Assembly: GCA_913009315.1 (NCBI GenBank)
Contig: CAJVZA010000052.1
Span: 1 to 14,649, forward strand
Direction of reading: 5' to 3'
Length of the DNA stretch: 14,649 nucleotides
Source: an uncultured Hippea sp.
GTDB taxonomy: Bacteria; Campylobacterota_A; Desulfurellia; JAADFJ01
Numbering within the stretch: the first letter of the stretch is position 1; each line of letters starts with the position of its first letter. The notes beneath the pieces were generated by a model. The model saw only the letters and a list, made by a program, of their open reading frames with translations, was not told the origin of the DNA and did not search any database. This document shows, one piece after another, positions 290-14,452 of the stretch. The position numbers were made by a program, and so were the translations under genes.

Positions 290-1957
290 ATGAAGATTGT
301 AAAAGGATTTCCATCGACTATGCAGGATGATTATCAGTTGAACATGATCAATATTATCAAGCATGGCGCGAGAAATTGGGCAAAACAGGAGATTGTTACC
401 AAGAAAGCGGATGGTCTTTTTCGGTACACTTACAAGGATGCTTATGAAAGAATCAAGAGACTTGCCAATGCTCTGGATGGTTTGGGGGTAGGAATCGGCG
501 ATCGTATAGGGGTGCTTGAATGGAACACGAATAGATACTATGAAATGGACTTCGGTATTCCAGGCACGGGTGCTGTTCTTCTCCAGATGAATTTGAGGTT
601 ATCGCCGACTGATCTGAGCTTCGTTGTCAATCACGCGGAAGCAAAATTTATCTTTGTCGATGAGACACTGATACCTGTTGCCGAAGCCATTGCCCCTATG
701 TGTAAGGCGGTAAAAGGCTATGTCATCCTGACTGACAAAAAACCCGGCAATATCAAGACAAAACTTAGCCCAATCTACAGCTATGAAGAACTCCTCAAGA
801 AGGCAAAACCTGAGTACGAATGGCCTAACCTTGATGAAAAATCCGCCTATGCCGCCTGTTATACCACTGGAACAACCGGCAATCCGAAAGGAGTCTATTA
901 TTCACATCGCGATGTTTATCTTCATTCTATGGCGATAGCTATGAATGCGGAGATAACGTATAGGGATTGTTTTTTTCAGCTCGTTCCCATGTTCCATGCT
1001 ATGGGGTGGGGCACTCCCCAGGCTGTCACCATGGCCGGAGGAAAACTTCTGCTTTCGGGAAGATACGCGGTGGAGGATCTGGGTCCTCTCGTTGATCTGA
1101 TGGTACAGGAGAAAGTGACCGTGGGGGATGGTGCCCCTGCCATCTTTTTACCTATGCTCAGATATATAGAAGAAATGAAAGAAAAGCCAAACTTCAAAGG
1201 CGCTCGTTTCCTCTCCGGCGGCACCGAACCTCCGATAGCCTTGATGAAAGGTTTATATGACTTAACGGGCGCCGAGATTGTTCATGCTTACGGCGCTACG
1301 GAGACCACTCCTCTTGTTACCATAAACAGGTTGAAACCGTGGCTGGAGAAAGAACTTTCGGAAAAAGAAAGATGGGATCTCAGGAGAAAACAGGGTTATA
1401 TTATTCAGGGTCTTGATGCCAAAATAATAGATGACTCGGGAAAAGAGCTGCCTCACGACGGCAAATCTGTCGGAGAGCTCTGTGTCAGAGGACCGTGGAT
1501 TACCGGCACATATTACAACGCCCCCGAAACTGAAAGTCAATTTACAAAAGATGGCTACTGGAAGAGCGGAGATGCCGGGACGATAGATAAAGAGGGGTAC
1601 ATGAAAATAACGGACAGGATAAAAGACATGATAAAAAGCGGGGGAGAATGGATTTCAGGTACAGATATGGAAAATGAAATAGTTTCCCATCCCGCGGTCT
1701 TAGAAGCTGCTGTCATAGGAGTGCCACATCCGAAATGGGAAGAGAGACCTCTGGCATTAGTGATTTTGAAGGAAAAATATGGGAGAAAGATTACCAAAGA
1801 GGATATTCATAAGCATCTCAGCAAAAAGTTTGCAAAATGGCAACTTCCGGATGAAGTTTTATTTGTAAACGAAATTGCAAAAACCAGCGTCGGAAAACTG
1901 AATAAAAAGGTGCTTAGAGAACAATACAAAAAAGCATACGTTAGCGAATCTTTATAA
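290..1957 (+). CDS. AMP-forming fatty-acid-type acyl-CoA ligase
   Basis: Activates a carboxylic acid to its CoA thioester with ATP through an acyl-AMP intermediate, probably in the cytoplasm. At 555 residues it has the usual length of the ANL superfamily. Visible motifs are the phosphate-binding loop YTTGTTGNPKG (191-201), YGATETTP (334-341), GELCVRGPW (396-404), GYWKSGDAG (422-430) and the hinge region DRIKDMIKSGGEWIS (442-456). The catalytic lysine is K536 in TSVGKLNKK. The GGEWIS hinge and overall character resemble the AlkK-type medium/long-chain ligases, so a fatty acid is likelier than acetate or an aromatic acid; this is inference. AAAGGAGG at 275-282 supports the ATG. It is the first clear gene of the cluster and lies 97 bases upstream of the HMG-CoA-synthase-like gene. 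The exact substrate cannot be read from sequence. Confidence 0.93.
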   Translation: MKIVKGFPSTMQDDYQLNMINIIKHGARNWAKQEIVTKKADGLFRYTYKDAYERIKRLANALDGLGVGIGDRIGVLEWNTNRYYEMDFGIPGTGAVLLQMNLRLSPTDLSFVVNHAEAKFIFVDETLIPVAEAIAPMCKAVKGYVILTDKKPGNIKTKLSPIYSYEELLKKAKPEYEWPNLDEKSAYAACYTTGTTGNPKGVYYSHRDVYLHSMAIAMNAEITYRDCFFQLVPMFHAMGWGTPQAVTMAGGKLLLSGRYAVEDLGPLVDLMVQEKVTVGDGAPAIFLPMLRYIEEMKEKPNFKGARFLSGGTEPPIALMKGLYDLTGAEIVHAYGATETTPLVTINRLKPWLEKELSEKERWDLRRKQGYIIQGLDAKIIDDSGKELPHDGKSVGELCVRGPWITGTYYNAPETESQFTKDGYWKSGDAGTIDKEGYMKITDRIKDMIKSGGEWISGTDMENEIVSHPAVLEAAVIGVPHPKWEERPLALVILKEKYGRKITKEDIHKHLSKKFAKWQLPDEVLFVNEIAKTSVGKLNKKVLREQYKKAYVSESL

Positions 1958-2054
1958 ATGCATTGCGATTTCTGCCAGGATAAAGATATATGATGAGGTG
2001 AATCAAAAATAAGCGAAAACCCGAATTAATATAAAATATTATAGGAGGCAAAAA

Positions 2055-3524
2055 ATGGTCGGAATTGTTTCGATGGGTTTTTATCTGCCGTATTACAGGC
2101 TTGATAAGAAGAAAATTTTTGATGCATTTGGATGGTATGATCCGTCACAAATTAAAAATGCGAGGGGAAAGCTTGCTGTTATGAACTTTGATGAAGACAG
2201 TATTACGATGTCCGTTGCGGCAGGTTCTAACTGTGTTGAAGATGATACAGATAAAAATGATATAGGCGCTCTGTACTTTGCAACAACCACACCTCCTTAC
2301 AGAGAAACTTCAAACGCATCTATCATTGCTGCTGCCCTTAGCCTCAATGAAAATATTCGTACATCCGATTTTACAAATTCATTACTATCAGGAACAAACG
2401 CTATGCTGTCAGCCGGAGACAGTGTCAAAAGCGGCTCAGTTAAGAATGCCCTTATTTGTGCTGCCGACAATCGCCTCGGCAAACCCTCCGGCAATCTGGA
2501 ATATCTATTTGGAAATGCTGCTGCATCAGTCCTAATAGGAAATGAACATGTAGTTGCCGAAATAACGGACAGTTTTTCCATATCTAAGAACTTCATAGAT
2601 TATAGAAGAACATCGGATGACAAGTATGTTAGAACGTGGGAAGAGAGGTGGATTAAGGATGAAGGTTATGTGAAAACGGTTCAGGAAGCTGTGAATGGAA
2701 TCCTTAAAAAAGGGAAGTTGAATCTTTCTGATTTTTATAAGGTTATATATTATTGCCCCGACATGCGTGCATTTAAAGTGATAGGAAAAACACTAAACCT
2801 TAAGCCTGAACAGATGGAAGACCCGCTCTTTAACACAGTAGGAAATACAGGAACAGCCCACCCATTTTTAATGCTTGCAAATGCCCTAAAAGAAGCAAAA
2901 CCGGATGATAAAATTCTACTCGTAGGATATGGCAACGGTGCTGATGGTATAATTTTGAATGTAACAGATGAAATAGAAAAGAAAAGAGAACAATTTAATC
3001 TTGAAAATGTATCGAGTAGAAAAAGAGAATTAGACAATTATGAACAGCTTGCAACCTTTAGAGGCAAAGCAGATGTTGAAAAAGGTATCAGAGGAGAAGT
3101 TGCGTCTTCCTCGCTTTCTGTTCTCTGGCGTGAAAGGAATGCCATACTAAAGCTGCACGGATCGCGTTGCAAAAAATGCGGTACACCTTTTTATCCGCCT
3201 CAGCGTATATGCGCCAATCCCAAATGTGGAGCAATAGATGAAATGGAGGACTATGTATTTGCTAATAAAAAAGGCGAAATTTTCACTTTTACTGCGGATA
3301 GATTGGCATTTAGTCTAAATCCGCCCGCCATATATGGTATCATAGATTTTGATGGAGGAGGGCGCTACTGGTTTGACCTGACGGATTGCGTTTCTGATGA
3401 ACTTTATGTAGGTATGCCTGTTAAAATGACTTTTAGGCGTAAATTTTATGATAAATCAAGAGGTCTGTACGGATATTTTTGGAAAGCAACCCCGGATACT
3501 GATAATGGAGGTAATGATGTCTGA
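2055..3524 (+). CDS. HMG-CoA-synthase-like protein fused to C-terminal DUF35 (zinc ribbon + OB fold)
   Basis: Residues about 1-305 follow the HMG-CoA synthase/KAS III fold along their whole length, from the N-terminal GIVSMGFYLP through GNTGTAHP (263-270) to GYGNGADG (291-298). After a charged linker (about 305-365) comes a DUF35 module: a zinc ribbon with C372, C375, C386 and C391 (CX2C-X10-CX4C), then an OB-fold region to about 480. Against archaeal HMG-CoA synthases as I recall them, the catalytic Glu, Cys and His align with T78, L110 and Y233, so ordinary synthase chemistry looks impossible. Asn263 of the GNT motif is kept. DUF35 proteins bind CoA thioesters and partner with thiolases, and the next gene is a thiolase overlapping by 8 bases, so a complex is likely. 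AGGAGG at 2043-2048 supports the ATG. Similar fusions occur in actinobacteria, from memory; I know of no settled function. Confidence 0.88.
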   Translation: MVGIVSMGFYLPYYRLDKKKIFDAFGWYDPSQIKNARGKLAVMNFDEDSITMSVAAGSNCVEDDTDKNDIGALYFATTTPPYRETSNASIIAAALSLNENIRTSDFTNSLLSGTNAMLSAGDSVKSGSVKNALICAADNRLGKPSGNLEYLFGNAAASVLIGNEHVVAEITDSFSISKNFIDYRRTSDDKYVRTWEERWIKDEGYVKTVQEAVNGILKKGKLNLSDFYKVIYYCPDMRAFKVIGKTLNLKPEQMEDPLFNTVGNTGTAHPFLMLANALKEAKPDDKILLVGYGNGADGIILNVTDEIEKKREQFNLENVSSRKRELDNYEQLATFRGKADVEKGIRGEVASSSLSVLWRERNAILKLHGSRCKKCGTPFYPPQRICANPKCGAIDEMEDYVFANKKGEIFTFTADRLAFSLNPPAIYGIIDFDGGGRYWFDLTDCVSDELYVGMPVKMTFRRKFYDKSRGLYGYFWKATPDTDNGGNDV

Positions 3525-4719
3525 AGGTATTAAAAATAAAGTAGCAATAATTGGCATGGGCTGCACCAGGTTTGGTGAAAGATGGGATAAAAGTGAAGAA
3601 GATCTGATAGTGGACGCTTATAAAGAAGCAATTGAAGATGCCGGCATAGAACCAAACAAAATTGAAGCAGCATGGTTAGGCAGCTGTTTTGATGAAGTAA
3701 ATATTGGTAAAAGTGCACTTCCCCTTTCGACCACATTAAAACTCCCTTTCATACCTGTAACAAGAGTAGAAAATTTCTGCGCAACAGGCACAGAAGCTTT
3801 TAGAGGCGCATGCTATGCTGTGGCGTCCGGAGCGTGCGACATAGCTATAGCTGTAGGAGCCGAAAAATTAAAAGACACAGGTTACGGCGGACTTCCTGAA
3901 TTTAATTCTTCAATGGGAACAAAAAATCGTTATATATTACCCAATATAACCGCACCCGGAGCATTTGCGATGCTTGCTACAAGATATTTTTCAAAATATA
4001 AAATAAAATATGAAGAAGGCAGAAGGACATTAGCAAAAGTTTCCATAAAAAGTCACAAGAATGGGGCATTAAATCCAAGAGCCCATCTAAGAAACGAGAT
4101 CACAGAGGAATCTGTATTGAAAGCACCTATGATTTCAGCTCCTTTAGGGTTATATGATTGCTGCGGTGTAAGCGATGGAGCCGCAGCGGTAATAGTGGTT
4201 CGGGCAGATAAAGCAAAAGAGTTCAGAAAAGATCCAATCTATGTAAAAGCTTTACAAATTTCGGTAAGCTCAGGTGAAGAATCTTTATATACCAAGTGGG
4301 ATGGAACAAATATACCTACCACATATTATGCCGGTGCAAGGGCATATAGAGAGGCAGGGGTAAAGAATCCGAGAGAAGAAATCAATACTATGGAAGTGCA
4401 TGATTGCTTTTCTATAACGGAGCTTATTGTTTATGAGGATTTGCAAATATCACCCCGCGGCAAGGCATCGGAAGATGTGGCATCCGGCCTTTTTAACTTA
4501 GATGGCCAAATTGCCTGTCAAACAGATGGCGGACTAAACTGTTTTGGTCATCCGATCGGAGCATCGGGAATCAGAATGATCTATGAGGTTTATAAGCAAC
4601 TTCAGGGGAAAGCCGGTCCTCGTCAAATAAAAAACGCCCGCTTGGGGCTTACGCATAACTTAGGAGGTTTTCCCTCCATGAGTGTGACAAGTGTAGCCTT
4701 ATTCGGTAATGAACTTTAA
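3517..4719 (+). CDS. SCP2-type thiolase (acyl-CoA acetyltransferase family)
   Basis: Cleaves or forms a 3-oxoacyl-CoA. The 400-residue protein has the nucleophile Cys88 in NFCATG, VHDCFS (294-299), the catalytic His345 in NCFGHPIGASG (341-351), and HNLGG (380-384) where classical thiolases carry the second Cys in a CxG motif. That pattern marks the SCP2/archaeal-type thiolases, the class that works with DUF35 partners such as BbsA-BbsB of anaerobic toluene degradation and the archaeal acetoacetyl-CoA thiolase. The start is set at 3517: GGAGG at 3507-3511 is 5 bases upstream, and the longer frame from 3448 runs through the preceding gene without a ribosome site. ATG 3514 is adjacent but too close to the GGAGG. 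The gene overlaps the DUF35 fusion by 8 bases, implying coupled translation and a stoichiometric complex. Unlike its partner it keeps its key catalytic residues. Confidence 0.93.
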   Translation: MSEGIKNKVAIIGMGCTRFGERWDKSEEDLIVDAYKEAIEDAGIEPNKIEAAWLGSCFDEVNIGKSALPLSTTLKLPFIPVTRVENFCATGTEAFRGACYAVASGACDIAIAVGAEKLKDTGYGGLPEFNSSMGTKNRYILPNITAPGAFAMLATRYFSKYKIKYEEGRRTLAKVSIKSHKNGALNPRAHLRNEITEESVLKAPMISAPLGLYDCCGVSDGAAAVIVVRADKAKEFRKDPIYVKALQISVSSGEESLYTKWDGTNIPTTYYAGARAYREAGVKNPREEINTMEVHDCFSITELIVYEDLQISPRGKASEDVASGLFNLDGQIACQTDGGLNCFGHPIGASGIRMIYEVYKQLQGKAGPRQIKNARLGLTHNLGGFPSMSVTSVALFGNEL

Positions 4720-4798
4720 CCGGTTTGCACAGAATGTTGCTGCATAATTATAGGTAAGTATATCCATTAAAGGAATAAATCTGAAAAGGAGGAATAGT

Positions 4799-5566
4799 AT
4801 GGAAATAAAAGATTGTGTTGCTATTGTTACAGGAGGCGCGTCAGGATTGGGGGCCGCCACAGTTCGACAATTGTCCGGTAAGGGTGCACGAGTTGCTATC
4901 TTTGACGTTAAAGCAGACAAAGGTGAATCACTGGCTGAAGAGATAGGAAATAATGTTATATTTGTCAATGTCGATGTTACCAGTGAGAATAGCGTGAGTT
5001 CAGGAATAGAAAAAACCATTAATACCTTTGGCGGTATCAATATAGATATTAATTGCGCCGGCATTGGAGTTGCGGAGAAAATTCATGGCAGAAAAGGCCC
5101 GATGTCTCTTAATCATTTTAACAAAGTAATTCAAATCAACCTATTAGGAATGGTAAATGTAATCAGGTTGTCTGTAGAACAGATGATCAAAAATAAGCCG
5201 GGCGATGATGGTGAAAGAGGCGTTATAGTAAATACTGCTTCCGTTGCTGCATTTGATGGTCAGATTGGTCAAGCTGCATATAGTGCATCTAAAGGAGGTA
5301 TCGTAAGTATGACTCTTCCGATAGCAAGAGAGTGCGCTGCGTATGGGATTAGAGTGATGGCGATTGCGCCGGGCATATTTGATACTCCAATGCTCGCATC
5401 ATTGCCGGAAAAAATACGGGACGCTTTAGGTGCAATGGTGCCGTTTCCGCAAAGATTGGGTAAACCATCGGAATATGCAAGGCTGGTTCAGCATATCATT
5501 GAAAATAGAATGCTGAATGGTGAAGTTATCAGATTGGACGGCGCCATTAGAATGCAGCCTAAATAA
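4799..5566 (+). CDS. SDR-family 3-hydroxyacyl-CoA dehydrogenase, HSD10-like
   Basis: Oxidises a 3-hydroxyacyl-CoA to the 3-oxoacyl-CoA with NAD+. The 255-residue protein is a classical short-chain dehydrogenase with TGGASGLG (11-18), acidic D36 at the end of beta-2 (NAD preference), NCAG (85-88), N114, and the catalytic Ser148, Tyr161 and Lys165. It resembles human 17-beta-HSD type 10 (2-methyl-3-hydroxybutyryl-CoA dehydrogenase) strikingly across its length, including [27 protein letters not shown] and the C-terminal [15 protein letters not shown], as I recall that sequence. This makes the CoA-ester role more likely than a generic SDR role, and 2-methyl-branched substrates plausible. AAAAGGAGG at 4784-4792 fits the ATG. 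It sits between the thiolase and the acyl-CoA dehydrogenase, as in a beta-oxidation operon. Confidence 0.9.
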
Positions 5567-5675
5567 GTATTACTTCGCATTACCTCTAATATATATTTAT
5601 AAAAGAACAGCCTGCATATAAAAATAGGCTCATTTGTAAAACAGATGAATTGTAAATAAGAGAAGGAGCTGGCAT

Positions 5676-6821
5676 ATGGATTTTAGGTTAACGGAAGAAC
5701 AAACTATGATTAGAGATATGGCACGAAAATTTGCACATGATGTTGTAGCACCGCAAGTTAAAGCTATAGAAGAAGCCGGAGAATATCCTTATGAAATCTT
5801 AGAACAGATGGCAGAGCTTGGAATGATGGGTATCCCGTTTCCTGAGAAATACGGCGGAGGCGGAGGGGATTGGGTGGAAATGCACCTTTGCATAGAAGAG
5901 TTGTCACGTGTAGATATGAGTCTTGGAGCTTTGCTGGATGTTACAACCGGCCTCATAGCTCAGGAGCTGTACGAATTTGGTACAGAGGATCAGAAGCAAA
6001 AATGGCTGATTCCTATAGTACAAGGTAAAAAGATTGGTGCGTTTGGACTTACCGAATCTGATGCGGGTTCTGATGCCGGAGCTACCAAAACAACAGCGAT
6101 TCTTGATGGTGATGAATGGGTTATAAACGGAACGAAACAGTTTATAACAAATATTGGGCTTGATAATGCTTCCATCATAATCATTACAGCTAAGGTAACA
6201 CCTAAGACAAAAGTTGGTAAACCTGCAATCAACACCTTTATTGTTCCTAAAGGTACGCGTGGATTTACAGTTGGGAAAAGGTATAATAAAATGGCAGTAC
6301 ATCGTTTGGCAACAAATGAATGTATCTTTGAGGATTGTCATATCCCTAAGAGCTATATACTGGGGAAGCAAGACAGGGGTTTTGCCCAACATCTTGCTGT
6401 TTTGAATACAGGCCGCATTAGTATTGGCGCCATGAGTGTAGGTCTGGCTCAGGCATGTTTTGATGCTTCACTCAAATATGCGAAGGAGAGAGTTCAATTT
6501 GGAAAACCGATTTACAGTTTCCAGGGAGTTTCCTTCAAGATAGCTGACATGGCTATGAATATTGAGCTGGCAAGAAACATGTATCTTAAAGCAGCATGGT
6601 TGAAAGATAATAATATGCCGCATGCATTGGAAGCGTCCTATGCCAAGCTTTTTGGTTCTGAAATGGCAGAAAAGGCTGCAAGTGATGCCTTGCAAATTCA
6701 CGGAGGATATGGCATTATGGATGATTATCCGGTGTCACGTTACTATAGAGAATGCAAGGTAGGACAGATTGTGGAAGGTACATCGGAAATACAGCGTATA
6801 GTTATAAGCAGGAACTTATAA
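5676..6821 (+). CDS. Acyl-CoA dehydrogenase
   Basis: FAD-dependent alpha,beta-desaturation of an acyl-CoA, passing electrons to ETF. Length (381 residues) is that of short/medium-chain enzymes. Visible are the N-terminal helical domain starting FRLTEEQ, the flavin-binding AFGLTESDAGSDAG (122-135), INGTKQFITN (150-159), RVQFGKPI (272-279), IHGGYGIMDDYP (341-352), and the catalytic base E367 in QIVEGTSEIQR (364-374). The loop after the beta-domain reads KMAVHRLATNE (205-215) where many family members have a KMG-R-S type sequence, so the substrate pocket may be distinctive. GAAGGAG at 5662-5668 supports the ATG. It is flanked by the HSD10-like SDR and the racemase-like CaiB protein; its probable redox partner EtfAB is encoded 4 kb downstream. 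Chain length or branching cannot be read directly. Confidence 0.95.
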   Translation: MDFRLTEEQTMIRDMARKFAHDVVAPQVKAIEEAGEYPYEILEQMAELGMMGIPFPEKYGGGGGDWVEMHLCIEELSRVDMSLGALLDVTTGLIAQELYEFGTEDQKQKWLIPIVQGKKIGAFGLTESDAGSDAGATKTTAILDGDEWVINGTKQFITNIGLDNASIIIITAKVTPKTKVGKPAINTFIVPKGTRGFTVGKRYNKMAVHRLATNECIFEDCHIPKSYILGKQDRGFAQHLAVLNTGRISIGAMSVGLAQACFDASLKYAKERVQFGKPIYSFQGVSFKIADMAMNIELARNMYLKAAWLKDNNMPHALEASYAKLFGSEMAEKAASDALQIHGGYGIMDDYPVSRYYRECKVGQIVEGTSEIQRIVISRNL

Positions 6822-6969
6822 TGTTTATATTATCAGTTGTTAGTTTAGATGCTGAAACGATGTATATGAAAAGCAAGTTACCTATTAATTTGTGAGATAG
6901 CTGATTTAGATAAACTATTGATATATAGCTTTTATGGATTTAAGTGATGATAAAAAAGGAGAATTAAAG

Positions 6970-8148
6970 ATGTCGTTTGATGCATTATCGGGCATACGTG
7001 TGCTTGACCTGTCACGTCTGCTGCCCGGACCATACTGTTCTATGATGTTAGGAGACCTTGGCGCAGAAATTATTAAAGTGGAAGAGCCGGGCAGAGGCGA
7101 TTATATAAGATATTATCTCCCAAAACTTAAAGCGGAAAGTGCGTTTTTTCTTGCACTGAACAGGAACAAAAGAAGCATGACTTTAAATCTTAAAAGCGAA
7201 CGTGGTAAAAAAATATTTATTGATCTGGTTAAGAATGTTGATGTTGTGTTGGAGAGCTTCCGTCCCGGTGTAATGGAAAAGCTTGGAATTGGATATAAAA
7301 AACTTCAAAAATCTAATCCTAAAATTATTGTTTGTTCCATATCCGGCTATGGTCAGGATGGTCCGTATGCAGAGAAAGCCGGCCATGATATAAATTATTT
7401 ATCTATTGCGGGCATCACAGGGCTAACGAAAACTAAAGATGGAAAGCCTGTAATACCCGGCATACAGATTGCTGATATTGGTGGGGGCATGATGGCGGCT
7501 TACTGTATTTTAGCTGCCATTATTGATAGAGAAAAAACAGGTAAAGGACAGTATATCGATATATCTATGACAGATGCTGCTATGACATGGTCAACCATGT
7601 ATCTCGGGAAATATTTTGCCGATGGTAAAATTCCCAAACCCTCATCCGAGTTACTAACAGGACAATTTGCCTGCTATAATATATACAAAACAAAAGATGG
7701 CGGATATATGTCTTTGGGTGCTCTTGAACCTCAATTTTGGTCAGCTTTTTGTAAGGCCATAGGAATGGAGGACATGATACCAAGACAGATGGATGAAGGC
7801 GAAAAGGCTGAGAAGCTAATATCTGAAGTAAAAAAGGTATTTTTAGAGCATACGAAAGATGAATGGATTGAGTTATTAAAAGATGTAGATTGCTGCTGTG
7901 AGCCGGTCAATAGTTTTGATGAAATGCTTTCCGATCCTCAAATTATTCATCGCAAAATGATTTGTGAGATAGAACATCCTAAAGAAGGAACGATTCGCCA
8001 GATAAATTTTCCGGGTAAATTTTCAGCTACACCTGCACGAGTAAGACTATCGCCCCCTGCCCTTGGTCAACATACGGAAGAAATATTAAAAAAACTGGGA
8101 GAAACAAATAAAGAAATTGTGAATCTTAGAAAAGAAAAGGTTATATAA
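6970..8148 (+). CDS. CaiB/BaiF-family protein, probable alpha-methylacyl-CoA racemase
   Basis: A 392-residue class III CoA-transferase-fold protein (N-terminal GIRVLDLSRLLPGPYCSMML). The family contains both CoA-transferases and alpha-methylacyl-CoA racemases. Three residues known from the mycobacterial racemase (His126, Asp156, Glu241) have counterparts here: H139 in GHDINY, D169 in ADIGGGMM, and E253 in ALEPQFW. I therefore favour racemisation of 2-methylacyl-CoA (R to S, the form used by acyl-CoA dehydrogenases) over CoA transfer. D140 next to H139 is the equivalent of the transferase catalytic Asp, so a transferase remains possible. The start is ATG 6970, with AAAAAAGGAG at 6952-6961 placed correctly; an in-frame ATG at 6934 has no ribosome site and would add 12 non-family residues. 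It follows the dehydrogenase by 148 bases. Confidence 0.87.
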   Translation: MSFDALSGIRVLDLSRLLPGPYCSMMLGDLGAEIIKVEEPGRGDYIRYYLPKLKAESAFFLALNRNKRSMTLNLKSERGKKIFIDLVKNVDVVLESFRPGVMEKLGIGYKKLQKSNPKIIVCSISGYGQDGPYAEKAGHDINYLSIAGITGLTKTKDGKPVIPGIQIADIGGGMMAAYCILAAIIDREKTGKGQYIDISMTDAAMTWSTMYLGKYFADGKIPKPSSELLTGQFACYNIYKTKDGGYMSLGALEPQFWSAFCKAIGMEDMIPRQMDEGEKAEKLISEVKKVFLEHTKDEWIELLKDVDCCCEPVNSFDEMLSDPQIIHRKMICEIEHPKEGTIRQINFPGKFSATPARVRLSPPALGQHTEEILKKLGETNKEIVNLRKEKVI

Positions 8149-8234
8149 GAAATAGACAAGCAGGCTAAATGGCAGAGTATAGGAGATATACGACATTTAT
8201 TGTTTCCAGGATGATTTAGCACAAATGTAAAATA

Positions 8235-8254
8235 ATTATGAGACCACTCATAAT
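8235..8254. promoter_or_regulatory. Perfect 8+8 palindrome, candidate operator
   Basis: ATTATGAG-ACCA-CTCATAAT is a perfect 8-base inverted repeat with a 4-base centre, in the 166-base gap between the racemase-like gene and the thioesterase, 61 bases before the latter's start. It has no following T-run, so it is not a terminator. Its size and symmetry suit a dimeric repressor of the TetR or GntR type, which often control fatty-acid genes. Its spacing differs from the Bacillus FadR box as I recall it. Part of its core recurs inverted at 180-190. No regulator gene is in the window. Confidence 0.35.
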
Positions 8255-8314
8255 GATAAAGACATATCAACGGATTGCGCAAAACATCCGGCAAATTGTT
8301 GAGGAGGAAGATTG

Positions 8315-8734
8315 ATGAAAAACAGGATAAGTGAGCATATACAGATTCGTTTTAGAGATACAGATGCGATGGGTCATGTCAATAATGCAGTATATGTTAC
8401 GTATTTTGAAATGGTGAGAATCAAGCTGTTTAAAGAGATATTCGGTTTGAATAGCAGCGATAGAATGTTGAGCAAAGCACCTGTAATAGCTGCTATGAAT
8501 AGCTGCAATTATAGAATACCTCTTTTTATAGGCACAAAAATAAAAGCTGAATGCTGCGTATCTAAGATAGGCCAAAAGAGTTTTACTATATTTACAGAAA
8601 TTATCGGAGAAGAGGACGGAACTATATATGCAGATGGAGAAACCGTCATTGTCTTTTATGACTATGATTTGAAAAGATCAACGGATATTTCTCAGAAATA
8701 TAGGACAGCTTTGCAGAAACTTTCCTGCGAGTAA
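8315..8734 (+). CDS. Acyl-CoA thioesterase, 4HBT hotdog family
   Basis: Hydrolyses an acyl-CoA to acid and CoA. The 139-residue protein is a single hotdog domain with the family signature RFRDTDAMGHVNNAVYVTYFE near residues 12-32, split here as RFRDTDAMGH then VNNAVYVTYFE. D17 occupies the position of the catalytic Asp of 4-hydroxybenzoyl-CoA thioesterases, and HVNNAVYVTYFE is the helix start typical of the YbgC/FadM-like branch. GAGGAGG at 8301-8307 sets the ATG at 8315; a TTG at 8312 is too close. In a degradation cluster such an enzyme usually frees CoA trapped in dead-end thioesters or releases an end product; which one is not visible. A palindrome lies directly upstream, so it may begin a separately controlled transcript. 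Confidence 0.88.
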   Translation: MKNRISEHIQIRFRDTDAMGHVNNAVYVTYFEMVRIKLFKEIFGLNSSDRMLSKAPVIAAMNSCNYRIPLFIGTKIKAECCVSKIGQKSFTIFTEIIGEEDGTIYADGETVIVFYDYDLKRSTDISQKYRTALQKLSCE

Positions 8735-8803
8735 TACACTGATGAGGCAATTCATTCATGCTGAAAGAGAAAAAATATGATTGATGATCAAATGAGGAAA
8801 ATC

Positions 8804-8999
8804 ATGGTAAAACAGGAGACTTTCAAAGGGATTCGAGTGTTGGATATTACCGGATATGGTATTATACTATAGTCTATGGGCATCTACGCTCCTGTCAGTT
8901 ATGGGAGCGGAGGCAGTTCATGTGGAAATGCCGGGAGCAGGGGATGTTCTTATAAGGGCAGGAAGTCCCGGGTATATTCCCAGGAGGTATTCCGCATAA
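8804..8999 (+). pseudogene. CaiB/BaiF CoA-transferase remnant (N-terminus only, frameshifted)
   Basis: From ATG 8804, preceded by GAGGA at 8794-8798, the first frame reads FKGIRVLDIT, the family N-terminus, then meets TAG at 8870-8872. A second frame then continues with ASTLLSVMGAEAVHVEMPGAGD (split as ASTLLSVMGAE and AVHVEMPGAGD), the following conserved CaiB/BaiF segment, up to TAA at 8997-8999. About 65 codons remain of roughly 390. The stretch between the two parts is 28 bases where intact relatives have about 21, so one frameshift plus a large C-terminal deletion is the simplest reading. Its VEMPGAGD sequence differs from the intact CaiB gene at 6970 (VEEPGRGD), so it is not a recent copy of that gene. 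A sequencing error could explain the frameshift but not the truncation. Confidence 0.68.
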
Positions 9000-9033
9000 A
9001 ATATAAGAAAAAGTTAAAATTGAGGGAGGAACA

Positions 9034-10686
9034 ATGAAAAAAGATCAACCCGCGGACAATGCAGATAAAAGCTGTTTCGAAACATTAAATAAAGGGAATA
9101 TAGAGTATATACTCAAGCGTTACAATAAAGTCAATCGTTGGGTAATAGCGGATATGATCCGGCGCAGCGCTTATCATTTTCCGGATAAAACTGCGCTGGT
9201 TTACAAGGATATCAGCCTAACTTATGACGAGCTGGAAAAACAATGCAACAAGACGGCTAATGCACTGCTCGGCATAGGGGTTAAAAAGTATGACCGGGTG
9301 GCAATTCTGGCCCATAATAGTCTGCATCATGTCTTAACATGGATGGGCTGCTGCAAAGCAGGTGCAGTTTATCTGGCAATCAACTATCTTTTGCGCGGAC
9401 CGGAAATTGAATATTGTATAAATAACTCCGAAAGCAAGGTTTTTATTATTGAAGACAGCTTGTACGATCTGGTCAAAGATGTCCTTAAAAATATGCCGAG
9501 CGTCAAAACCTTGATCTGGTCTAATCAAGGCGCAGGACAAGCAGCACCGGATGATACTTTTCTGGACTTCGATTCATTGTATAACGCTTATCCGGAACAG
9601 GAACCGAATAAGATACTGCGCATCGAAGATCCTTGCCAGATGACTTACACAAGCGGAACGGAATCCAAACCCAAAGGGGTAATTATCAATAATCAGGCTT
9701 TAATAGCTGAATACATGGGGTGCATCATAGATGGAGGATACGATAGTTCCGATATCAATATCAATGCCATGCCTATCTACCACTGTGCCCAAAGAGATGT
9801 ATTTCTGAATCCGATATTTTATATTGGAGGCACCAATATCCTTATGGGCCCGAATATTGAAGAGATTTTGAAGAAAGTTCAGGAAACTAAGGCAACTATG
9901 CTTTTTGCTCCGCCGACAATCTGGATCGGAATTTTGCGGCATCATGCATTTGACAACTATGATCTTTCCAGCTTGAAAAAACTCTATTACGGAGCATCAA
10001 TCATGCCGATAGAAATATTGAAAGAGCTGCTGCAAAGGCTGCCCGGAACAAAGATCTACAATTATTACGGTCAAACCGAGCTTGCGCCGTATCATACCAT
10101 TTTAAAGTCGGAAGATGCCCTGAGAAAGTTGGGTTCCGCAGGCATGGGTGCGCTCAATATGGAAACCAGATTAGAGGATGACTTCGGCAATTCCATTGAC
10201 AGCACAAATCTGCCCGGGGAGATCTGCGGTCGGGGACCTCATACTATGATGATGTATTTTAAAAATGCCGAAAAAACAGAAGAAGCGATGAAAGGCGGGT
10301 GGTTTCATTCCGGAGACTTGGGTGTTCTGGATGAAGACAGATACATATCAGTAGTCGATCGCAAAAAGGATATGATCAAAACCGGTGGAGAAAATGTTTC
10401 CACGAGAGAGGTAGAAGAGGTAATTTATCTGGATAAACGCGTTCAGGAGGTGGCCGTTATTGGATTATTTCATCCAAAATGGATAGAGGCGGTTAGCGCT
10501 GTGGTTGTACCCAAATCAGGTGAAAAGATTACTGAAGATGAAATTATCAAACATTGCAGGGAACATCTGGCTCCGTTTAAAATTCCTAAAAAAGTCATTT
10601 TTGTTCAAACACTGCCAAAAACCCCGACAGGAAAAATTTTAAAGAGGGATTTGCGGCAAGATTATAAGGATATATTCAAAAGATAA
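9034..10686 (+). CDS. AMP-forming acyl-CoA ligase (second copy, different subfamily)
   Basis: Forms an acyl-CoA from acid, ATP and CoA. The 550-residue ANL-superfamily protein has YYGQTE (344-349), GEICGRGP (395-402), GGWFHSGDLG (421-430), the hinge DRKKDMIKTGGENVS (442-456) and the catalytic K534 in PTGKILKR. The phosphate loop is YTSGTESKPKG (205-215), with Glu-Ser replacing the usual Thr-Gly. I recall this together with the MPIYHCAQRDVF-like segment (246-257) as a subfamily trait of some fatty-acyl-CoA synthases, so it should not be read as a defect. It is clearly divergent from the ligase at 290, suggesting a different acid or chain length. GAGGGAGG at 9022-9029 supports the ATG. It follows the CaiB remnant directly and precedes the ETF unit by 160 bases. 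Confidence 0.92.
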   Translation: MKKDQPADNADKSCFETLNKGNIEYILKRYNKVNRWVIADMIRRSAYHFPDKTALVYKDISLTYDELEKQCNKTANALLGIGVKKYDRVAILAHNSLHHVLTWMGCCKAGAVYLAINYLLRGPEIEYCINNSESKVFIIEDSLYDLVKDVLKNMPSVKTLIWSNQGAGQAAPDDTFLDFDSLYNAYPEQEPNKILRIEDPCQMTYTSGTESKPKGVIINNQALIAEYMGCIIDGGYDSSDININAMPIYHCAQRDVFLNPIFYIGGTNILMGPNIEEILKKVQETKATMLFAPPTIWIGILRHHAFDNYDLSSLKKLYYGASIMPIEILKELLQRLPGTKIYNYYGQTELAPYHTILKSEDALRKLGSAGMGALNMETRLEDDFGNSIDSTNLPGEICGRGPHTMMMYFKNAEKTEEAMKGGWFHSGDLGVLDEDRYISVVDRKKDMIKTGGENVSTREVEEVIYLDKRVQEVAVIGLFHPKWIEAVSAVVVPKSGEKITEDEIIKHCREHLAPFKIPKKVIFVQTLPKTPTGKILKRDLRQDYKDIFKR

Positions 10687-10820
10687 ATAAGTAAAATCGA
10701 TAGAATGATGGTAATGCAATTAAAATATAACATAATGATGCGCAAGCATATAATGGCGCCACAGATGTGTAAGTGTAGAAAATATAATTTAAGCTGCAAA
10801 AATTACTTATGGAGGCATTT

Positions 10821-10850
10821 ATGAAACAATTGTTTGGGAGGTTAGGATGA
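10821..10850 (+). CDS. Nine-codon leader minigene coupled to etfB
   Basis: ATG 10821, with GGAGG at 10811-10815 five bases upstream, encodes the nonapeptide MKQLFGRLG. Its TGA (10848-10850) overlaps the etfB start as ATGA. The etfB ribosome site GGGAGG (10836-10841) lies inside the minigene. This layout suits translational coupling or a leader whose translation opens the etfB site. The peptide has no recognisable similarity and may be a chance frame, but the well-placed Shine-Dalgarno and exact overlap argue for use. It has no run of a single amino acid, so classical attenuation is not indicated. Confidence 0.4.
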   Translation: MKQLFGRLG

Positions 10851-11599
10851 AGATAGCCGTTTTGGCTAAGGTTGTAAGCGATTATGAAATACCGTCATCG
10901 GATTTTGAACTTGAGGGTAACAGAATAAAAGATCGTTACAACAAAATGATAGGATTGTATGATGAACATGCCATTGAACTTGCGATTCAGGTTGCCGAAA
11001 AATCCGGTGCCGAGGTTGAGATAATCAGCTATGGCAGCAAATCGGATGTAGCAATTTTGAGAAAGGCGCTCGCTATGGGTGCAAATTCATTAACTATGAT
11101 TGAGGGAAACGATGATGATCCGGCCGTGATTGCTGCTGAATGCGCAAAGATTATCAAAGAAAAACAGCATGATCTTATTCTTGCGGGGCGTCAATCCTCA
11201 GATCTTGAACGCGGGGTTGTTCCTGCATTAGTGGCAAGCATGCTCTCTTTGCCGTACGTACCCATAGTAAAACAGATCAGCATCAACGAAAATGAACTGA
11301 TACTTATTAAGCAGATCAAGGGAGGCATATTAAAACTTAAAGCTGCAGCGCCTGTGGTATTATCGATTACCGACGATCCTACCAATGTTCCGAGAATTCC
11401 GGCCGTTAGGGGAATATTGCAGGCAAAAAGAAAACCTGTCGACATATTAACCGCCGACTCGTCGAATGATTCGGTTATGAAGGAGATATCGGTTGAAATC
11501 CCAAATCTTGAATATGAATGCGAAATTTTGCCTTCTGATGATATTCATGAAGCAGCCGATCTGCTTGTAAATAATCTGAAAAAGGAGCACCTGTTATGA
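10847..11599 (+). CDS. etfB: Electron transfer flavoprotein beta subunit
   Basis: Small subunit of the heterodimeric ETF, which accepts electrons from acyl-CoA dehydrogenase. The 250-residue protein begins MKIAVLAKVV and has the family segments DEHAIELAIQ (39-48), ALAMGAN (74-80), GRQSSDLERG (114-123), and the C-terminal signature region NVPRIPAVRGILQAKRKPVD (180-199). GGGAGG at 10836-10841 is 5 bases before the ATG. It is followed by etfA with a 4-base ATGA overlap, the standard beta-alpha order. Whether this ETF bifurcates electrons or acts as a simple carrier cannot be decided by eye: that needs comparison of the NADH-site residues against bifurcating ETFs. The acyl-CoA dehydrogenase at 5676 is the natural donor. 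Confidence 0.95.
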   Translation: MKIAVLAKVVSDYEIPSSDFELEGNRIKDRYNKMIGLYDEHAIELAIQVAEKSGAEVEIISYGSKSDVAILRKALAMGANSLTMIEGNDDDPAVIAAECAKIIKEKQHDLILAGRQSSDLERGVVPALVASMLSLPYVPIVKQISINENELILIKQIKGGILKLKAAAPVVLSITDDPTNVPRIPAVRGILQAKRKPVDILTADSSNDSVMKEISVEIPNLEYECEILPSDDIHEAADLLVNNLKKEHLL

Positions 11600-12486
11600 A
11601 GGCATTGATAATAAGCTCAGATAATCCAAAAAGATTAGGGGAATTGAAAACTGTTGCAGCCGCATTGTGCACCGATCATGAAGCTATTGTAATTACCGAT
11701 AAAAATAGTGTCCCGGGATCATGGAATAAGGCATGGGTGACAACAGAATCTCTTGGAGCAAATCTTACCGATTCTGTGTTGAAACTTGCAAATGACGCTG
11801 ATTATATAATATCATCGGGTGACATAGGTCTTTCTATATTGCCTGAAATAGCATTCAAGCTTGGTGCATCTCTAACAACGGAAGTCACCGATATTCAAAA
11901 AGAAAACGATCATATCGTATTTACTCATCCGGTATATGGCGGTAAAGCGATTGCCAAATATGAATCGAATAAAAAGAAAATCTGTATTTCTCTCAGGGAA
12001 AATTACTTTAATCCTAATCCGCTGGACGGCCAAACCGAAGCTGAAAACATAGCGGTTTCAGAAAAAAGGATTGAACTATTGGAAACCAGTATGGAAGAAG
12101 CCGAAGGAATCAGCCTGGAAGATGCCCCGGTCATAGTTTCAGGAGGAAGGGGAATCGGAGGAGCCGAAGGATTTGACAGTCTTTCCAGACTTGCAAAACT
12201 TTTCGAAGGAACCATCGGTGCTTCAAGAGCAGCAGTTGATGCCGGTTGGGTTCCAAACAGCCTGCAGGTCGGCCAGACAGGAACAATTGTGGCACCCGAT
12301 CTATATGTTGCGGTTGGAATTAGCGGAGCAAGTCAGCATTTAGCCGGAATTACCAATGCAAAAATTGTTGTAGCAGTGAACAAAGACGAGGAAGCTCCAA
12401 TATTCAAAAGGGCTCGATTTGGAATTGTGGCCGACTGGAAAAAATTCATACCTGCTTTAACAGAAAAGATTAGCCGGCTAAAATGA
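11596..12486 (+). CDS. etfA: Electron transfer flavoprotein alpha subunit
   Basis: Large subunit of ETF, carrying the FAD. At 296 residues it is slightly shorter than the common 310-340. The C-terminal FAD domain is complete: SGGRGIG (182-188), SRAAVDAGW (210-218), QVGQTG (224-229), GISGASQHLAG (241-251) and NKDEEAPIF (262-270). The N-terminal domain (about 1-175) is more divergent. There is no N-terminal ferredoxin domain of the kind found in some anaerobic EtfA proteins. The ATG overlaps the etfB stop (ATGA, 11596-11599), with AAAGGAG at 11581-11587, and the thiolase start overlaps its stop in the same way, so the subunits and thiolase are translationally coupled. Confidence 0.95.
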   Translation: MKALIISSDNPKRLGELKTVAAALCTDHEAIVITDKNSVPGSWNKAWVTTESLGANLTDSVLKLANDADYIISSGDIGLSILPEIAFKLGASLTTEVTDIQKENDHIVFTHPVYGGKAIAKYESNKKKICISLRENYFNPNPLDGQTEAENIAVSEKRIELLETSMEEAEGISLEDAPVIVSGGRGIGGAEGFDSLSRLAKLFEGTIGASRAAVDAGWVPNSLQVGQTGTIVAPDLYVAVGISGASQHLAGITNAKIVVAVNKDEEAPIFKRARFGIVADWKKFIPALTEKISRLK

Positions 12487-13670
12487 AAGAAAAAGAAGTA
12501 GTAATTATAGATGGCGCCAGAACACCGTTTGGCGATTTCGGAAAGGCACTGAAAAATTTTTCCGCAGCCGATCTTGCCGTAATTGCAACAGAGCATCTCT
12601 TTAAAAAATTGGATTTTCCGAAAGGCGTGATAGACCATATCGTATTTGGGAATGTCATACAAAGCTCAAAAGACGCCATATATCTTGCAAGACATGTTGG
12701 ACTGAAAAGCGGAGTTCCTATTGAGGTGCCGGCACTCACGGTTAACCGCCTCTGCGGTTCAGGTTTCGAGGCGGTTATTGAAGCGGCAAGACAAATAATG
12801 ATAGGTGAATCGGATGTTGTTCTGGCCGGAGGCACCGAATCAATGAGCCAGGTGCCATATTGCTTAAGAGATGTCCGTTTTGGAAAAATGAGACTTGGCG
12901 GCAAACCGCCGTTAGAAGACTATCTCTGGGAATCGCTAACCGACAGTTATACGGATTTGCCGATGGCGCTCACTGCTGAGAATATTGCAGAGAAAGATAA
13001 CGTAAGTAGAGACGAGGTTGACGATTTTGCGTATATGAGCCAGAAACGAGCAGCAAAAGCTGCGGAATCAGGCAGATTGGATGATGAGATTATTGAAATA
13101 TATGATCCGAAAAAGATGAAAAAGCCGTTAAAAATCGATGAGCATATCAGATTCGATATTTCACGAGATGATTTAGCGAAGCTCCGACCCGCATTCAAAA
13201 AAAATGGTACGGTTACCGCAGGCAATGCATCGGGGATCGTAGATGGAGCAGCCGCAGTCATTGTGGCTTCTTTGGAATGGGCAAAGGCGAATGGATACAA
13301 TCCGATCGGCAGAATACTCTCATGGGGTATAAGCGGCGTTGATCCATCCTATATGGGCTTGGGGCCTGTTCCATCAATGAAAAAGGCTGCGAAAAATGCC
13401 GGCATTGCCATTGGTGATTTTGATTTGATAGAGATTAATGAAGCATTCAGTTCCCAATTTTTGGGAGTTGCCAAAGAACTTGAGCTTGATCTTGACAGAA
13501 CAAATGTTAACGGAGGTGCAGTTGCAATCGGACATCCGCTGGCTGCAACCGGCACAAGGCTGATAATCACTATTTTGAAGGAGCTCAAGAGACGCCGCAA
13601 AAATAAGGGCATTGTCTCGGCTTGTATTGGAGGAGGTCAGGGAACCGCAGTTGTTATGGAGACGATGTGA
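12483..13670 (+). CDS. Thiolase, acetyl-CoA C-acyltransferase
   Basis: Thiolytic cleavage of 3-oxoacyl-CoA to acetyl-CoA (or propionyl-CoA from 2-methyl substrates) and a shortened acyl-CoA. The 395-residue protein is a canonical thiolase: nucleophile Cys91 in NRLCGSG, NEAF (319-322), His351 in GGAVAIGHPLAATG (344-357), and the second catalytic Cys381 in CIGGGQG. All active-site elements are present, unlike the SCP2-type thiolase at 3517, so the cluster holds two thiolases of different classes. The start ATG overlaps the etfA stop (ATGA, 12483-12486); no strong separate ribosome site is seen, which fits coupling. It is also followed by a GTGA overlap. Biosynthetic acetoacetyl-CoA thiolase activity cannot be excluded. 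Confidence 0.95.
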   Translation: MKEKEVVIIDGARTPFGDFGKALKNFSAADLAVIATEHLFKKLDFPKGVIDHIVFGNVIQSSKDAIYLARHVGLKSGVPIEVPALTVNRLCGSGFEAVIEAARQIMIGESDVVLAGGTESMSQVPYCLRDVRFGKMRLGGKPPLEDYLWESLTDSYTDLPMALTAENIAEKDNVSRDEVDDFAYMSQKRAAKAAESGRLDDEIIEIYDPKKMKKPLKIDEHIRFDISRDDLAKLRPAFKKNGTVTAGNASGIVDGAAAVIVASLEWAKANGYNPIGRILSWGISGVDPSYMGLGPVPSMKKAAKNAGIAIGDFDLIEINEAFSSQFLGVAKELELDLDRTNVNGGAVAIGHPLAATGTRLIITILKELKRRRKNKGIVSACIGGGQGTAVVMETM

Positions 13671-14452
13671 CTGCCGGACTGGCTATTATTGCGACGCCGA
13701 GAAACGATGGAAACAGTGAGATTGCGGCAAAAATAATTCTTGATGCTGCAGGGTTTGAGCATAAATCAATTATCAATCTGTACGATCTGAATCTAAAGCC
13801 ATGCACTGCTTGCTACAGCTGCCTTTTTCAGGAAGGATGCGTAATAGATGATGATGTAACATGGATATTAAATAAGATTAACAAGACAGATGCCCTTATC
13901 TTTATCAGTAATACTTATTTTATGGGGATAAATGGGGTTTGGAAGCTGTTCTTAGATAGAATGCTGCTTCTGAACCAATATAAGAACATAAAAAATACGC
14001 CTGTTGTATTGCTGGCTGTTTCGGGAATCAAGGGATGGGAAGGGCTTACACTCTCTTCCCTTGCGTCTGCTGCATTTTCAATGGAGCTTGATGTCAGAGC
14101 AGAAGCCGATTTTGTAGCCACTCTTCCGGGTGATATCGAAAATCACAAGAAGCAGATCATTAATATCGGCAAAATTTTGTCGGGAGAGATTAAAAAAGAA
14201 ACCAATTATGATGAATTCTGCAATTTCTGCGGCTCAAACTGCTTTAAAATTTCAAACGAAACCGTTAACTGTGCTGTCTGCGGCAAGCCCCATAAAACAG
14301 GCGAACCTGTTATAACAGCTAACTGGTCTAATCATGGAGATTGGCTCAGGAAAAAGAAGAATGAATTTTTGGCAAGAAGAAAAGAACTTCTAACAATACA
14401 TAATAGATACAATAAACTGAAATACAAAATAAAACCGGATAAGGAGAGTTAA
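13667..14452 (+). CDS. Iron-sulfur flavoprotein (Isf-like) with C-terminal zinc-ribbon-like tail
   Basis: Flavodoxin-fold FMN protein of the NADPH-dependent FMN reductase/Isf group, probably carrying electrons. Start GTG 13667 overlaps the thiolase stop (GTGA), with GGAG at 13658-13661; the longer frame from TTG 13622 lies inside the thiolase. In the 261 residues, TPRNDGNS (10-17) is the FMN phosphate loop. C46, C49, C52 and C58 form CX2CX2CX5C, the compact [4Fe-4S] motif of the Methanosarcina iron-sulfur flavoprotein, followed by DDDV; SNTYFMGINGVWKLFLDR spans 81-98. After the flavodoxin domain (to about 175) a second cysteine group, C185, C188, C192, C202 and C205, resembles a zinc ribbon. 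A basic tail ends the protein. Coupling to etfBA and thiolase suggests a role as electron acceptor or donor for ETF, which is inference. Confidence 0.86.
   Translation: MTAGLAIIATPRNDGNSEIAAKIILDAAGFEHKSIINLYDLNLKPCTACYSCLFQEGCVIDDDVTWILNKINKTDALIFISNTYFMGINGVWKLFLDRMLLLNQYKNIKNTPVVLLAVSGIKGWEGLTLSSLASAAFSMELDVRAEADFVATLPGDIENHKKQIINIGKILSGEIKKETNYDEFCNFCGSNCFKISNETVNCAVCGKPHKTGEPVITANWSNHGDWLRKKKNEFLARRKELLTIHNRYNKLKYKIKPDKES

Follow-up and report, generated by a model that had tools for sequence, protein, structure and literature searches.

The question raised by this locus is what an HMG-CoA-synthase-like protein carrying none of the catalytic residues of HMG-CoA synthase (HMGS) does directly upstream of a thiolase. 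The window, i.e. the whole stretch of 14,649 nucleotides analysed, contains twelve genes in the same direction which likely constitute, judging from the products they appear to encode, an operon for acyl-CoA degradation (Table 1). The first half of this series encodes an acyl-CoA synthetase, the fused gene discussed here, its thiolase, an SDR, an acyl-CoA dehydrogenase and a CoA-transferase III, and the second half a 4HBT thioesterase, a second acyl-CoA synthetase, EtfB, EtfA, a BktB-type thiolase and a weak FMN-reductase-like match. The BktB-type thiolase (12483-13670) is a second thiolase sharing the operon with the partner thiolase of the fused gene. The fused gene is a single open frame whose product is composed of an archaeal-type HMG-CoA-synthase fold and a DUF35 zinc ribbon and OB domain. 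In Pfam the protein matches ACP_syn_III_C (2.3e-7) and, above cut-off, both DUF35 domains, zf-ChsH2 (3.8e-7, 30.2 bits against 23.2) and OB_ChsH2_C (2.6e-10, 40.5 bits against 27.1). The zinc ribbon, described as intact in the initial annotation, retains C372, C375, C386 and C391, all four of which are invariant in the 16 homologues aligned.

Table 1. Features of the fused gene, its partner thiolase and the surrounding likely operon in the window.
Feature	Position	Strand	Evidence
Likely operon, twelve same-direction genes	290..14452	+	ORFs, Pfam, profile matches
GGAGG ribosome-binding site of fused gene, 6 bases 5' of ATG	2044..2048	+	Sequence
Fused pseudo-HMG-CoA-synthase/DUF35 gene, 489 aa	2055..3524	+	ORF, Pfam, HMGS profiles, AlphaFold2 model
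HMG-CoA-synthase fold, residues 1-340	2055..3074	+	NF003274 match 1-339; model superposition on 6esq_I
T78, place of catalytic Glu82	2286..2288	+	Alignment to 6esq_I
L110, place of catalytic Cys114	2382..2384	+	Alignment to 6esq_I
Y233, place of conserved His238	2751..2753	+	Alignment to 6esq_I
zf-ChsH2 zinc ribbon, residues 367-393, with C372, C375, C386, C391	3153..3233	+	Pfam
OB_ChsH2_C (DUF35 OB fold), residues 401-461	3255..3437	+	Pfam
GGAGG ribosome-binding site of thiolase, within end of fused gene	3507..3511	+	Sequence
Partner thiolase (PRK06157/SCP2-like)	3517..4719	+	Profile and structure-sequence matches
Thiolase nucleophile Cys (Cys88 from ATG 3517)	3778..3780	+	Cys in 63/63 fused partners
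Thiolase HDC motif (His295, Cys297 from ATG 3517)	4399..4407	+	Kept 61/61 where readable
Thiolase GHP His (His345 from ATG 3517)	4549..4551	+	Kept 61/61 where readable

Archaeal HMGS profiles cover residues 1-339 of the fused protein end to end, and every curated HMGS cut-off is missed: NF003274 gives 223.6 bits against 244, TIGR00748 167.8 against 353, and two further HMGS equivalog models 69 bits against 360 and 18.8 bits against 286. In the alignment to the HMGCS of Methanothermococcus thermolithotrophicus (6esq_I; 1e-28) T78 corresponds to Glu82, L110 to Cys114 and Y233 to His238, and the catalytic Glu, Cys and His of HMG-CoA synthase are all missing from the fused protein. Unlike Glu82 and Cys114, which are named as the key catalytic residues of the archaeal enzyme (PMC6392133), His238 is counted as the conserved His from the alignment. 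The AlphaFold2 model of the fused protein (five models, 16 homologues; pLDDT 85.9, pTM 0.89) has the HMGS fold of the thiolase superfamily; 338 of its residues can be superposed on 6esq_I at 1.8 A (Z 46.9, the best structural match, tied with 9skh_A) and 337 on PhlA (5m3k_A) at 1.9 A (Z 45.8). Since the model superposes on 6esq_I, the correspondence of the domains is not a product of sequence alignment, and misalignment is ruled out by the agreement of sequence alignment and structure superposition. The end-to-end match to archaeal HMGS and the three replacements, both of which the initial annotation had proposed, hold in these comparisons, the replacements to the residue.

Relatives were gathered from genome searches, from named genomes that were scanned for them (among others MAGs with the labels Desulfobacteraceae, Syntrophobacterales, SAR324, Chloroflexota and Aquificota) and from plasmids (Sphingomonas, Sphingobium, Variovorax, Azoarcus, Tistrella and others), and the joint alignment contains 60 distinct fused proteins from many bacterial families, 12 unfused proteins and 4 references. 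None of the 60 fused proteins has Cys at position 110 or His at position 233, and 59 lack Glu at position 78, the sole exception being the outlier L020. A conserved Cys/Glu/His set, which would argue against the pseudoenzyme suggested initially, was sought at the active site of these homologues and is absent; with the loss of the triad common to the 60 of them, degeneration in one genome is ruled out. As judged from sequence, the HMG-CoA-synthase-like domain is a pseudoenzyme. In the unfused neighbours the E/C/H set is complete in 11 of 12; the remaining one, L080, is grouped with PhlA in the tree and reads S/G/H at these sites. L080 (G183:C19:8500-13500) is an unfused PhlA-like operon, whose thiolase carries HDS instead of HDC. 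The outlier L020 is a divergent fused HMGS/DUF35 gene with Glu at both 78 and 110; it is found in a 13 kb fragment (L100, G038:C13:36000-49000) with three thiolases and several DUF35 genes.

The catalytic residues are not the only ones to have changed. Active HMGS have 99 invariant positions in common; each of 27 is retained by at least 80% of the 41 non-redundant fused proteins compared, and each of another 28 by less than 5%, the latter including E82, E111-F112-A113-C114, H200 and H238. With 28 of the 99 positions lost the background loss is therefore considerable, and the loss at the three catalytic sites alone would be only modestly above it; the case for a pseudoenzyme is built on the triad being absent altogether, and no statistical excess is claimed.

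About 32 of 386 sampled genomes, belonging to roughly 23 families, carry the fused form, which is at present annotated as hypothetical protein, OB-fold protein or 3-oxoacyl-ACP synthase III C-terminal protein. Two genomes of the window's own genus do not have the fused gene/thiolase pair, which for this reason looks like an accessory module. On a plasmid of Rhodococcus opacus PD630 (L095, 6983-8366) the fused homologue is split across two overlapping frames, annotated as UPF0219 protein and as uncharacterized protein, possibly by a frameshift or a sequencing error.

The partner thiolase is of the SCP2/archaeal type and has the nucleophile Cys, the HDC and the GHP motifs all present. Its ATG lies within the fused gene, just ahead of the stop codon of the latter (3522-3524), so that the two genes overlap; the ORF list begins this frame at an upstream ATG (3448), which gives 423 amino acids. 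A thiolase of the same type is found directly 3' of the fused gene, mostly 0-50 nt apart, in 65 of 70 records, some of which are overlapping fetches of one gene. Of the five remaining records, L007 is truncated where its contig ends, in L074 a thiolase lies about 1.4 kb 3' of the fused gene, and no thiolase was found in the DNA read around the fused genes L064/L097, L065 and L084/L099. For the fused HMGS/DUF35 genes of L097 (G122:C116) and L099 (G096:C60) the surrounding 14 kb contain zero thiolases. The order of genes is fused gene-thiolase here versus HMGS-thiolase-DUF35 in the unfused operons. Compared with solved structures, the partner thiolase gives 1e-57 to 1e-49 for acetoacetyl-CoA and SCP2 thiolases and 5e-23 for PhlC.

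In the family tree of HMGS-DUF35 fusions, which the initial annotation had put forward as a check, the fused proteins form one branch, all lying on one side of it (FastTree 1.0, IQ-TREE quick 79%); active HMGS form a separate branch (99%) and the PhlA-like proteins another (95%). The fused family does not group with PhlA in this tree, which is effectively unrooted, FabH being too long an outgroup. The thiolases linked to fused genes also form one branch (100%), apart from those linked to unfused genes, and the distances of fused protein and thiolase in a mirror-tree comparison correlate with r=0.73 (36 pairs, with shared ancestry uncontrolled).

The annotated plasmid operons around the pair contain CoA-transferases or CoA ligases, acyl-CoA dehydrogenases, MaoC or enoyl-CoA hydratases, and SDRs. 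An SDR is near the pair in 14 of 28 larger loci, and three Desulfobacterota loci have in common a putative regulator, two acyl-CoA dehydrogenases and an SDR, followed by the pair. In at least seven of the 28 larger loci examined (L087-L093) no recognised beta-oxidation gene was found near the pair, and Pfam scans of the neighbours in some loci gave unrelated genes. These loci rule out one beta-oxidation operon at every locus, and because of them the role in the pathway may vary. Leads to acetone degradation and to VceA/VceB gave no match to the fused/thiolase system. The genome of the window has two further pairs of neighbouring thiolase and DUF35 genes without an HMGS-like domain (L001, G000:C28; L044, G000:C5).

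Among solved structures the sequences closest to the fused protein are PhlA-type subunits (1.4e-40 and 1.8e-34). The PhlACB system (PpATase and CsATase; 5m3k, 9skh) is similar to the pair in that an HMGS-fold subunit without Glu and Cys is found together with DUF35 and a catalytic thiolase bearing its Cys. In PhlACB, PhlA lacks the Glu and the Cys, the substrate is contacted by residues of PhlC only and PhlC alone catalyses (PMC6392133); all three genes are required, PhlB bridges the dimers, A, B and C together line the cavity, and A and B are described as needed for assembly (PMC6392133, PMC12955522). PhlACB is in distinction encoded by three separate genes, while the A- and B-like parts are in one frame here; it performs a CoA-independent acylation of phenols, while the thiolase here resembles CoA-dependent ones; and PhlA is on a separate branch with C/G/Q at the three catalytic sites, where the window has T/L/Y. 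MucABC of Streptococcus macacae (9vbo), known here from PDB titles only, also has HMGS-like, DUF35 and thiolase-like subunits and an HMGS-like chain without the triad (C/E/Q), but as three separate chains and at 24% identity. The archaeal thiolase/HMGCS complex (6esq) is composed of the same three folds and includes the closest solved thiolase (2.8e-57), and its DUF35 holds thiolase and HMGS together (PMC12329534); however, its HMGCS is an active enzyme (Glu82, Cys114) of mevalonate synthesis, whereas the window has no competent HMGCS, and its DUF35 is a separate gene, which is fused here. The benzoylsuccinyl-CoA thiolase BbsAB (7pxp) and the steroid DUF35 aldolases Shy/Sal and ChsH2/Ltp2 resemble the pair in combining a thiolase fold with a DUF35 partner for degrading unusual acyl-CoA esters (PMC12329534), but have no HMGS-like domain, the DUF35 being alone or attached to a MaoC domain. 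The kind of system is thus already known from PhlA; different here are the two-gene fused form, the separate branch, the CoA-catabolic contexts and the broad unannotated spread. No paper on the fused family was found in the open-access literature searched, and the catabolic two-gene form with its fusion seems not to have been described in the searchable literature.

Most probably, the pseudoenzyme-DUF35 subunit serves to assemble the thiolase and to complete its substrate cavity, for action on 3-ketoacyl-CoA in a beta-oxidation-like catabolism. The fused protein, representing A and B in one chain, would join the thiolase encoded by the next gene in a hetero-oligomer, keep it in working form, and contribute to the walls of the acyl-binding cavity and perhaps of the CoA channel; in known complexes DUF35 is the bridge between the synthase-like and thiolase subunits. 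The bond would be made or broken by the thiolase alone, through Cys88, His295, Cys297 and His345. The complex would probably cleave or, reversibly, form 3-ketoacyl-CoA, in a pathway for bulky or unusual acids; thiolytic cleavage is favoured since the thiolase is nearest to CoA-dependent thiolases and the annotated operons are catabolic. Complex, role in the cavity, thiolytic direction and class of substrate are what we infer. A pseudoenzyme acting as scaffold of the thiolase had been one of the initial suggestions, and it is well supported by the family-wide absence of the triad, the conserved residues of the adjacent thiolase and the structural precedent of PhlA.

A multicomponent C-acyltransferase such as PhlACB or MucABC, building its product by acylation, would likewise have a dead HMGS-like part. 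Enzymes of this type typically contain such an inactive HMGS subunit, and the nearest solved sequences are PhlA-type. Against this, the fused family and the PhlA group lie on different branches, the partner thiolase is far nearer to acetoacetyl-CoA and SCP2 thiolases than to PhlC and keeps the HDCF motif, and the operons encode CoA ligases and CoA-transferases together with acyl-CoA dehydrogenases, hydratases and SDRs, which makes this explanation unlikely.

It is even less likely that the HMGS-like domain is still an enzyme, with a new chemistry based on C234, S112 or other residues, as considered in the initial annotation. In its favour, 19 of 41 non-redundant homologues share C234, which adjoins the His position, and 33 of the 41 share the Thr at position 78; the fused family has fixed R140 and D154, and in two homologues a Cys stands beside position 110. 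However, neither C234 nor S112 is conserved, position 112 being Ala in 30 and Ser in 6 of the 41 and position 234 otherwise mostly Ala, Ser, Pro or Leu, and the site has no conserved Cys, Ser, His or acid (L/Q/M/T/V at 110, P/Y/A/S/T at 233); an intact catalytic set is already supplied by the neighbouring thiolase. The initial claim that the CoA-site region around GNT (263-265) is kept is not confirmed: G263 is invariant, but position 264 varies between N, D, E and Y, and where active enzymes have a Tyr after GNT the window has Gly.

That the protein is an active HMG-CoA synthase serving the mevalonate pathway, with the mismatch an alignment artefact, has next to no probability, since the end-to-end match of the archaeal HMGS models is opposed by agreeing sequence and structure alignments, by all the missed HMGS cut-offs and by a genome (87.6% complete) in which no match to HMG-CoA reductase (PF00368) was found and DXP reductoisomerase, an enzyme of the MEP route, is present, which rules out a mevalonate role. 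The genome has no other archaeal-type HMGS.

For the thiolase-assembling pseudoenzyme, which we prefer, the old pocket itself may still matter. Newly fixed in the fused family (n=41) are R140 (98%), Asp at position 154 (90%, Asn in the window), and G204 and G266 (98% each), and since R140 and Asp154 are new polar residues some binding function of the pocket is possible. More tentatively, the dead synthase pocket, remodelled around R140 and D154, might now accommodate a bulky acyl chain or bind an allosteric ligand, and the fused/thiolase pair might represent a distinct and widespread two-component class of C-C cleaving or forming systems.

The fused family shows the "dead HMG-CoA synthase" of a few antibiotic acyltransferases to be one instance of a theme that is broad among bacteria. 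From the annotation point of view, HMGS profile matches on fused genes could wrongly suggest a mevalonate step. The fused/thiolase pair offers a ready system for asking why a thiolase retains an inactive paralogue as its partner, and a marker of uncharacterised catabolic operons.
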